From NCBI GenBank assembly GCA_020248405.1, contig JADCHQ010000015.1, forward strand, positions 78,643 to 142,642: DNA of 64,000 nt, given 5' to 3'. The first letter of the stretch is position 1. Each line of letters begins with the position of its first letter. This DNA is from Rhodocyclaceae bacterium (GTDB lineage Bacteria; Pseudomonadota; Gammaproteobacteria; Burkholderiales; Ga0077523). Below are positions 43,949 through 47,700 of the stretch, in pieces. The notes under the pieces were generated by a model. The model searched no databases. It was not told the origin of the DNA and saw only the letters and a list, made by a program, of their open reading frames with translations. Both the position numbers and the translations under genes were made by a program.

Positions 43949-44362
43949 ATGAAGACCTACCCCGCCGACAGCCCCGAAGCCATGGCCCGTGTACTGGCCA
44001 TGGTGATGCTTGCCGACGCGCGGCTCGACGACCGCGAACTGCAAGCCCTGGAGCGCCTCGACCTGTTGCGCCTGATCGGCCTCACCCGTGAGCAGTTCTC
44101 GCAGGTGGTGAAGGACTACTGCGACGAACTGCTGGCCGCCGGCGCCGCGGGAGGCAAGATCAACCTCATGGACAAGGCGCGCATCGATACCATCGTGGAT
44201 GGCGTGCAGGACGAGCGCAAGCGCACCGACGCCGCCAGCATGGCGCTGATCCTCATGAAGGCCGACCAGCAGTTCCACGATGCCGAACTGGCGCTGTTGC
44301 GCTACACCCTTGGGCGCTGGGGCCTGTCCCTGGACGAACTGCAACGCTCGCTGGCGGGTTGA
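43949..44362 (+). CDS. TerB-like protein
   Basis: A 137-residue all-helical soluble protein. MARVLAMVMLADARLDDRELQALERL and the later MALILMKADQQFHDAELALLRYTL segment, with acidic residues after VMLADAR, fit the TerB/TerB-like fold known from tellurite-resistance and DnaJ-linked proteins. It begins nine bases after mrpG with GGGAG ahead of the ATG, so it is co-transcribed with the antiporter. A role in tellurite resistance is not implied. Confidence 0.7.
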   Translation: MKTYPADSPEAMARVLAMVMLADARLDDRELQALERLDLLRLIGLTREQFSQVVKDYCDELLAAGAAGGKINLMDKARIDTIVDGVQDERKRTDAASMALILMKADQQFHDAELALLRYTLGRWGLSLDELQRSLAG

Positions 44363-44372
44363 CGTAAATCAA
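44359..44372 (+). promoter_or_regulatory. FNR/CRP-family binding site
   Basis: TTGAC-GTAA-ATCAA matches the FNR/ANR consensus TTGAT-N4-ATCAA at nine of ten defined positions. It overlaps the stop codon of the TerB-like gene. Its centre lies 41.5 bases before the start predicted from the TAGAGT hexamer at 44395-44400, the class II activator position. Confidence 0.65.
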
Positions 44373-44406
44373 GGCTGACCCGCGGCCCGGCCCCTAGAGT
44401 CGCGTC

Positions 44407-44629
44407 CAACGCGCGGGGGAAAAGGCCGGCGCGGGCCGGGAGCACGCCGTGGCGAGGGGCCGCGGACCCGGACACCGGCGGCCATGCAGTTCCACGGATG
44501 TACCGCGTTACCGGGCACGCTGGAATTTTCGGTGTGCGATCGGTCGGAGTGGCGTTCCGGCCGGTTCATGGTTGCTTCGCTACGTCGTTTCAGGGAACTT
44601 CGGGGTGCCGTCAGGCACCCCGTTTTTTT
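44407..44629 (+). ncRNA. Candidate FNR-activated small RNA
   Basis: About 223 bases run from the predicted start (near 44407, from the FNR box and TAGAGT) to the end of a strong intrinsic terminator. No open frame here ends before the terminator with a good start site; the frames read through it. The 5' part is extremely GC-rich with many complementary blocks, while the 3' part is less so. This fits an anaerobically induced regulatory RNA like FnrS or Neisseria AniS in its control logic; no sequence homology is claimed. It could instead be an attenuated leader of hrpA. Confidence 0.45.
44601..44629 (+). terminator. Intrinsic terminator upstream of hrpA
   Basis: A perfect 9-bp GC-rich stem, CGGGGTGCC/GGCACCCCG, with a GTCA loop, is followed by seven T residues. 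It lies 239 bases beyond the TerB-like stop and 82 bases before the hrpA start, so it ends a separate transcript or attenuates one. Confidence 0.93.
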
Positions 44630-44711
44630 GTGCGCCGGGTTGCCGAACCAGCGGACCACGGCGGCTCTCAAAGCCGCCTGCGCCCGTGACTTAACATTGC
44701 ACCCCACCGCC

Positions 44712-47700
44712 GTGACCTCCCCCTCGCCGTCAGACCTTCTCGCGTCACCGCCCTCGCGGCGTTCGCCCCTGGACGCCCAGTGGCAGCGCGTGCCTGCCTG
44801 CATGATCGAAGACCAGTCGCGGCTTCGCGCCCGCCTGGCGCGGCTGCGCGAAGCCAAGACCGGCGTGGACGAGGCCGATCTGGCCCGTATCGGAAGCGAC
44901 ATCGACACCTCGCTGGCCCGAGTGGCCCGGCGCCGCGCCCGCCTGCCGGTGCTGCGCTACCCAGAAGAGCTGCCCGTGAGCGGCAAGCGCGGCGAAATCG
45001 CCGCTGCGCTCAACGCCCACCCGGTGATCATCGTGTGCGGCGAGACCGGCTCGGGCAAGACCACGCAACTACCCAAGATCTGTCTGGAAGCAGGACGCGG
45101 CGTGCAAGGCCTCATTGGCCACACCCAGCCGCGACGCATCGCGGCGCGCACCGTGGCCGGGCGCATCGCGCAGGAGCTGGGCTCGCCGCTGGGAGAGCTG
45201 GTGGGCTACAAGGTGCGCTTCAACGACCACGTGGGGCCCGAGCCCTTCGTCAAGCTCATGACCGACGGCATCCTGCTCGCCGAGACGCAGGCCGACCGCC
45301 AGCTGCGCGCCTACGACACGCTCATCGTGGACGAGGCCCACGAGCGCAGCCTCAACATCGACTTCCTGCTGGGCTACCTGCGCCAGCTGCTGCCCAGGCG
45401 CCCGGACCTGAAGCTGATCATCACCTCGGCCACCATCGACGCCCAGCGCTTCTCGCGGCATTTCATGGACGCGCCGGTAATCGAGGTGTCCGGGCGGCTG
45501 TATCCCGTGGAGGTGGAGTATCGCCCGATCCGCGTGGACGAAGAGGACAAGGGCGGCGAAGCGCCCGACCTGCCCGAGACCATCGCCGACGCGCTCGACC
45601 ACCTGTACCTGAAGCACGGCAGCGGCGACGCGCTGGTGTTCCTGCCGGGCGAGCGCGAGATCCGGGAAACCGCCGAGCACCTGCGCAAGCATCCCGTGGG
45701 GCGGGTGCGCGGCGGAGCGGGCGGCGTGGAGATCCTGCCGCTGTTCGCGCGCCTGTCGCTCGCCGAGCAGGAGCGCGTGTTCAAGCCCGATGCCGGGCCG
45801 CGGGTGGTGCTGGCCACCAACGTGGCCGAGACCTCGCTCACGGTGCCGCGCATCCGCTACGTGGTGGACCCGGGGCTGGCGCGCATCAATCGCTACAGCT
45901 TCCGCAACAAGGTGGAGATGCTGCAGGTGGAGCCCGTGTCCCGGGCTTCGGCCAACCAGCGCACGGGGCGCTGCGGGCGCGTCTCGAGCGGTGTGTGCGT
46001 ACGGCTGTACTCCGAGGAGGAATTCCAGGCACGACCCGAGTTCACCGACCCCGAGATCCTGCGCTCCTCGCTCGCGGCGGTGATCCTGCGCATGAAGGCG
46101 CTCAAGCTCGGCGAGCCCGAGTCCTTTCCCTTCGTGGAGCCGCCCCAGCCGCGCATGATCGCCGACGGCTACCAGCTGCTGCTGGAACTGGGCGCGGTGG
46201 ACGAGCGCCACAACCTCACCAGCGTGGGCGCCCAGCTCGCCCGGCTGCCCATCGACCCGCGCATCGGCCGCATGATCGTGGCCGCGAAGCGCGAGAACTG
46301 CCTGCGCGAGGTGCTCGTCATCGCCGCGGCCCTGTCGGTGCAGGACCCGCGCGACCGGCCCATGGAGAAGGCCGAGTCGGCCGACGCCGCCCACGCCGCC
46401 TTCGTGGACGAGCGCTCCGACTTCCTTGGCTTCCTCAAGCTCTGGGACTTCTACGACGAGCTGCTCAAGCACAGGAAATCCACCCGCAAGCTGCAGGCCG
46501 AGTGCCGCGAGAAGTTTCTCTCGTGGCTGCGGCTGCGCGAGTGGCGCGATCTGCACGGCCAGCTGCACGCGCTGGTGTCGGAGATGGGCTGGCGGGAAAA
46601 CGACAAGCCCGCCGAGCACGCCCAGGTGCACCGCGCGCTGCTCGCCGGGCTGCTGGGCAACATCGGCATGAAGGGCGAGGAGGGTGGCGAATACCTGGGC
46701 GCGCGGAGCGTGAAGTTCCACGTCTTCCCCGGCTCGGCGTTGCGCAAGAAGCAGCCCCGCTGGGTGATGGCCGCGGAGCTCACCGAGACCACGCGGCTGT
46801 TCGCGCGCTGCGTGGCGGGCATCGAGCCCGAGTGGATCGAGGCAGCCGCGCCACACCTGGCGAAGAAGCACCACTTCGACCCCCACTGGGAGAAGGCCAC
46901 CGGGCAGGTGGTGGCCTTCGAGCGGGTGACGGTCTACGGCCTCATTGTGGTGCCGCGGCGGCGCGTGGCCTACGGGCCCATCGACCCCGCCGAGTCGCGC
47001 CGCATCTTCATCCGCGCCGCGCTCGTGGAAGGCGACGCGCGCCTGGAGGCGCCCTTCCTGCGCCACAACCGCCGACTGGTGGAAGAGGTGCGCGACCTGG
47101 AGCACAAGTCGCGCCGCCACGACGTGCTGGTGGATGCCGAGGACATGTTCGCCTTCTACGACGCGCGCATCCCCGCCGGCGTGCATGGCATGGCTGCCTT
47201 CGAGCACTGGCGCAAGGAGGCTGAGCGCGCCGATGCGAGGCTGCTGTTCATGACCCGCGAGGGGCTCATGCGCCAGGGCGCCCAGGCGCCCAGCGCCGAG
47301 CGCTTTCCCGACGCGCTGGAGATGAACGGCGTGCGCTACGCGCTCGCCTACCGGTTCGACCCGGGCCACCCGCTGGACGGGGTCACGCTGCAGGTGCCGC
47401 TGCACCTGCTCAACCAGGTGGACGAGCGCCGCGCCCAGTGGCTCGTGCCGGGGTTGCTGCGCGACAAGCTCACCGAGCTGCTGAAGAGCCTGCCCAAGGG
47501 GCTGCGCAGGCATTTCGTGCCCGTGCCCCAGGTGGTCACGGCGCTGCTGGGCGAAATCGAGGCCGACGCAGTGCCGCTGCCCGAGGTGCTGTCCGAGGCG
47601 CTGAGGCGCCAGACCGGGGTGGAGGTTCCCGTGGACGCATGGGATTTGGCCGGCCTGCCGGCGCACCTGCACATGAACTTCCGCGTGCTCGACGAGAAAG

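Follow-up and report, generated by a model that had tools for sequence, protein, structure and literature searches.

A candidate FNR-activated small RNA gene with a near-invariant 28-nt block in an uncultured clade of Burkholderiales

FnrS, the FNR-dependent small RNA (sRNA) of E. coli and other enterics, is a stand-alone gene with an FNR box at −41.5, a class II promoter, and an intrinsic terminator (PMC3032703, PMC8139620), and its homologues are reported only in Enterobacteriaceae (PMC3032703). The betaproteobacterial sRNA AniS/FnrS of Neisseria likewise has a class II FNR site and a terminator and is induced without oxygen; Neisseria AniS is ~111 nt long, with a 5′ stem-loop and an unstructured middle (PMC3032703). 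SicX (PA1414) of Pseudomonas aeruginosa is a low-oxygen sRNA that is driven by an Anr/FNR box, has a very narrow phylogenetic range, and acts on the ubiUVT 5′ UTR (PMC10247376). Other anaerobic-respiration sRNAs include NarS, which derives from narK mRNA, PaiI, which needs NarL, and PcrZ, which needs PrrA (PMC8139620). The known FNR-driven sRNAs look independently evolved: FnrS in enterics, AniS in Neisseria, and SicX in one Pseudomonas species.

Here we analyze a locus in a 64-kb window (the whole stretch of DNA under study) of a 3.7-Mb genome, G000, whose family has one genus in our search set. The features of the locus, all on the forward (+) strand, are as follows:

43949-44362, +, TerB-like gene, last gene of the Mrp operon (sodium/proton pump); Pfam TerB E 9.5e-5, slightly under the cut-off
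44359-44372, +, FNR-type box, TTGACGTAAATCAA; centre 44365.5, at −41.5 from the inferred start at 44407
44395-44400, +, −10-like hexamer, TAGAGT, 22 bp past the box; offset identical in six of six genomes
44407-44629, +, inferred small RNA, ~223 nt; start from class II geometry, end from the terminator
44541-44563, +, hairpin, CGGTCGGA (44541-44548) pairing with TCCGGCCG (44556-44563), loop GTGGCGT
44549-44583, +, possible pseudoknot, loop GTGGCG (44549-44554) with CGCTAC (44578-44583); pairing possible in six of six genomes
44569-44596, +, core block and candidate seed, TGGTTGCTTCGCTACGTCGTTTCAGGGA, 28 nt just before the terminator; 27 of 28 positions identical
44601-44629, +, intrinsic terminator, 9-bp stem at 44601-44622 (eight G-C pairs) followed by T7 at 44623-44629

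The locus resembles FnrS in having an FNR box at −41.5, a class II promoter, a stand-alone gene organization, and an intrinsic terminator; unlike FnrS, it has a conserved block on the 3′ side and a possible pseudoknot, and it has no Rfam match. It resembles AniS in its class II FNR site and terminator, and differs from AniS in that its RNA is longer and matches no Rfam family. It resembles SicX in its FNR-box promoter and narrow range, and differs in the organism and in that the target of SicX is the ubiUVT 5′ UTR. Unlike NarS, PaiI, and PcrZ, it shows only an FNR box. According to the explanation that we consider likely, the locus is a stand-alone sRNA gene that FNR switches on as oxygen declines, with a core that likely pairs with mRNAs. 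Reduced [4Fe-4S] FNR would bind the box at −41.5 and recruit RNA polymerase, by class II activation, to the weak −10 element, transcription would proceed from approximately 44407 and stop at the intrinsic terminator at 44629, and the resulting RNA would comprise a variable 5′ half, a conserved and possibly pseudoknotted hairpin, and, before the terminator, the near-invariant 28-nt block. That block would most likely base-pair with mRNAs, with consequent changes in translation or stability in low oxygen, as for FnrS and SicX. Anaerobic expression, dependence on FNR, the precise 5′ end, base-pairing, and any target are inferences. The parts of this explanation differ in strength: the locus is almost certainly a real, selected RNA gene; FNR very probably activates it; and action by base-pairing is the reading that we moderately favor.

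The promoter region exhibits the geometry expected for class II activation. A preliminary description of this DNA had placed an FNR-type box and a TAGAGT hexamer here, and had put the centre of the box 41.5 bases from the start implied by the hexamer; both positions are exact, and the distance from 44365.5 to 44407 gives the class II geometry. The pattern TTGAYNNNNATCAA has a single match in the window, which is this box, against a chance expectation of 0.05. Five other genomes have counterpart boxes at an equal distance (TTGACCTAAATCAA, TTGACCTGAATCAA, TTGATCTGAATCAA, TTGACCTGCGTCAA, and TTGATTTGAATCAA), such that all six genomes have a box at −41.5 and a matching −10 distance; the spacing between box and hexamer is constant, and the intervening letters are not conserved. 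The hexamers (TAGAGT, CAGACT, CACACT in two genomes, CACAAT, and CAATCT) share an invariant A at position 2 and an invariant T at position 6, but are weak, with matches at two to four of six positions, which counts against an FNR-activated sRNA. No sigma-70-type promoter was found at the locus, as is expected where FNR stands in for a −35 element.

The whole arrangement recurs in related genomes. BLAST against relatives matched the 3′ portion of this region in a further five members of the genus, so that six of its 12 genomes have a homologue. The preliminary description had named conservation of the FNR box plus terminator in relatives as a check; the check was run, and it is passed by all six genomes, each with an FNR box upstream of the homologue, a terminator downstream, and identical class II geometry. 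The FNR box lies <400 bp from the core in each genome, for which we estimate a chance of ~0.002 per genome; there are ~20 FNR boxes in the whole of the 3.7-Mb G000 genome, and chance co-occurrence of box and core is therefore negligible. Scored with a covariance model built on the 3′ part, the six carriers reach 93-130 bits, versus ≤31 bits for the next matches (399 genomes of the order searched, ~390 of them besides the carriers); neither the core nor the FNR box is present at the matches of ≤31 bits in the order and the genus. Pattern matches elsewhere in the order (L020-L023) were rejected as chance-like, having no setting of FNR box plus terminator. The exact core occurs in four public named records, from metagenome-assembled Betaproteobacteria, Burkholderiales, or Pseudomonadota; because the named carrier genomes are all metagenome-assembled, the RNA would not surface from model organisms. 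The plasmid, phage, and viral collections searched gave no match.

Searches of Rfam 15 returned nothing above the gathering score, and the best match with permissive settings (E 0.39) placed phage C4 antisense RNA on the terminator; this result applies to Rfam 15 as a whole rather than to individual models for FnrS, AniS, or SicX. The best reading is that the locus represents a new, clade-restricted sRNA family belonging to a functional class already known, with no homology to FnrS, AniS, or SicX by the tests applied. As an unrelated further case, from an uncultured Burkholderiales clade, it supports the idea that fast-evolving sRNAs have repeatedly been placed under FNR.

The boundaries of the RNA are set by the class II geometry and by the terminator, which is present, ending in seven T residues at 44629, as had been described previously. 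In a search over 1.5 kb, one terminator was found, versus 0.9 expected in shuffles, and the terminator by itself is therefore unremarkable; the locus stands above chance because its whole arrangement recurs in five other genomes. A codon-model gene finder, trained on G000 itself, places no gene within 44363-44801, in agreement with the earlier statement that no gene lies between, and begins hrpA at 44802. The length of roughly 220 bases proposed in the preliminary description holds for G000 (~223 nt) and not for the other carriers: the homologous RNAs are 153-221 nt, giving a range by genome of ~153-223 nt. The inferred RNA has an MFE z-score of −2.9.

Within the RNA, the 5′ half varies among genomes in both length and sequence, and conservation is concentrated on the 3′ side. 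In the hairpin stem, three of the six inner pairs have changed on both sides and still pair, and in the terminator stem four pairs are changed on both sides across the six genomes. Together these comprise seven compensatory pairs, a number reached in none of 500 shuffles, and the fraction of paired cells is 95%, versus 37-47% after sliding of the partner strand. The core has a mean pairwise identity of 98.8%, versus 60% on its 5′ side and 71% in the terminator, and is present as a single copy in each of the six genomes. Its location fits the earlier proposal that the 3′ half is the working part of the RNA, and, by analogy, this single conserved block is a probable seed for mRNA pairing; a seed so compact and well conserved provides a handle for target search.

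The hairpin loop, generally GUAGCG(A) and GUGGCGU in G000, could pair with a segment of the core to form the pseudoknot listed above. The helix hardly varies, with only one A-U to G-U change among the six genomes, and the pseudoknot therefore remains a proposal. We regard as tentative, and rather doubtful, the extended reading in which the loop of the upstream hairpin locks the seed of a new sRNA family in a pseudoknot, to be opened by a target or a chaperone; if true, it would provide an oxygen-controlled sRNA with a built-in seed lock.

The genomic neighborhood bears on the alternatives to an FNR-activated stand-alone gene. Upstream of the RNA, five of the six carriers have Mrp antiporter genes (in G000, subunits named by NCBIfam), two of the five with a TerB-like gene; the sixth, G003, has other antiporter-type (complex I-like) subunits plus TerB there. 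A small TerB-like protein is the last of the Mrp operon in G000 and in several relatives. The terminator could end the mRNA of the Mrp operon, and a processed 3′ fragment of that mRNA could be the functional RNA, with or without an FNR promoter. In G000 the FNR box overlaps the TGA stop (44360-44362) of the TerB-like gene, in most carriers the box lies close behind the operon, and enteric NarS provides a precedent for an origin of 3′ UTR type (PMC8139620). Against an origin of this type, all six genomes keep the FNR box and the box-to-hexamer distance, including the three from which TerB is absent (G001, G005, and G006), and in G003 behind other antiporter-type subunits. We consider a 3′ UTR-derived RNA unlikely as the main explanation; the Mrp operon 3′ UTR is a possible side source of the RNA.

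A stand-alone gene is also what the downstream side indicates. The downstream genes differ among carriers and are unrelated, while the terminator is present in all six genomes, and we conclude that the RNA most likely stands alone. A small protein is very improbable: over the core, G000 has an open frame (MVASLRRFRE...) that extends from 44568 into hrpA, but this frame passes through the terminator, and the core is not a peptide, because every codon position is conserved, third positions being invariant, and because a 1-nt indel directly after the core shifts the frame between genomes. The alternative raised in the preliminary description, an FNR-dependent attenuated leader of hrpA, is rejected, since hrpA, although the next gene in G000, is not next in the other five genomes, at least two of which (G003 and G001) have a convergent neighbor on the opposite strand, and since the strong terminator ends 172 bp before the hrpA start.

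Activation by FNR presupposes an oxygen-sensing FNR, and all six carriers encode an FNR with a C-x2-C-x5-C cluster and a distal fourth Cys; the G000 protein is of the canonical [4Fe-4S] type (NCBIfam Fnr, 253.9 bits, cut-off 228). The FNR-box pattern has 20 sites in G000, versus one for a reversed control pattern, and the boxes precede fnr, hemN, ccoN, and a ccoI-like heavy-metal P-type ATPase gene, a set that, as predicted from box positions, is a textbook FNR regulon. FNR is also encoded in five of the six genomes that lack the RNA, from which it follows that FNR is required without being sufficient. In an FNR protein tree that omitted G005 (nearly identical to G006), the other five carriers form one group, the support for which is moderate (0.61) when G000 is among them. 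This grouping fits either a single origin within one clade or divergence elsewhere past the point of recognition. Two further observations concern the regulator itself. No canonical FNR is encoded in G010, the sixth genome without the sRNA: the nearest relative there is a Cys-poor paralogue in which the Cys cluster is missing (C108). In G000, one FNR box lies between the divergent fnr and hemN genes (C45:152500-156000), and fnr is therefore probably autoregulated together with hemN.

Target searches used the core as the query. In a duplex search against 2,088 gene starts, ~60% of G000, the best duplex had −34.6 kcal/mol, and 15 of 20 shuffled cores gave an equal or better value; none of the 2,088 gene starts rose above the shuffled controls. 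A search of the six genomes for 14-15-mers complementary to the core gave no gene that recurs, and an Hfq motif scan of ~60% of G000 gave no match. These negative results weigh against the explanation favored here. The top duplex match, nuoG, was not accepted as a target: it exceeds shuffles in G000, G005, and G006, two of which (G005 and G006) are near-identical, and not in G001, G002, or G003. Separately, a 25-nt stretch (92%) is common to G005 and G001 in different surroundings (L116 and L118, near 1500), possibly by chance; it lies around CCCCTGAAACGACGAC, which is complementary to a portion of the core. A second candidate target in G000 is an isoquinoline-1-oxidoreductase-like gene (C22:33223-33762, minus strand), with 13 bases just before its start that can pair with the core, one of the pairs being G-U.
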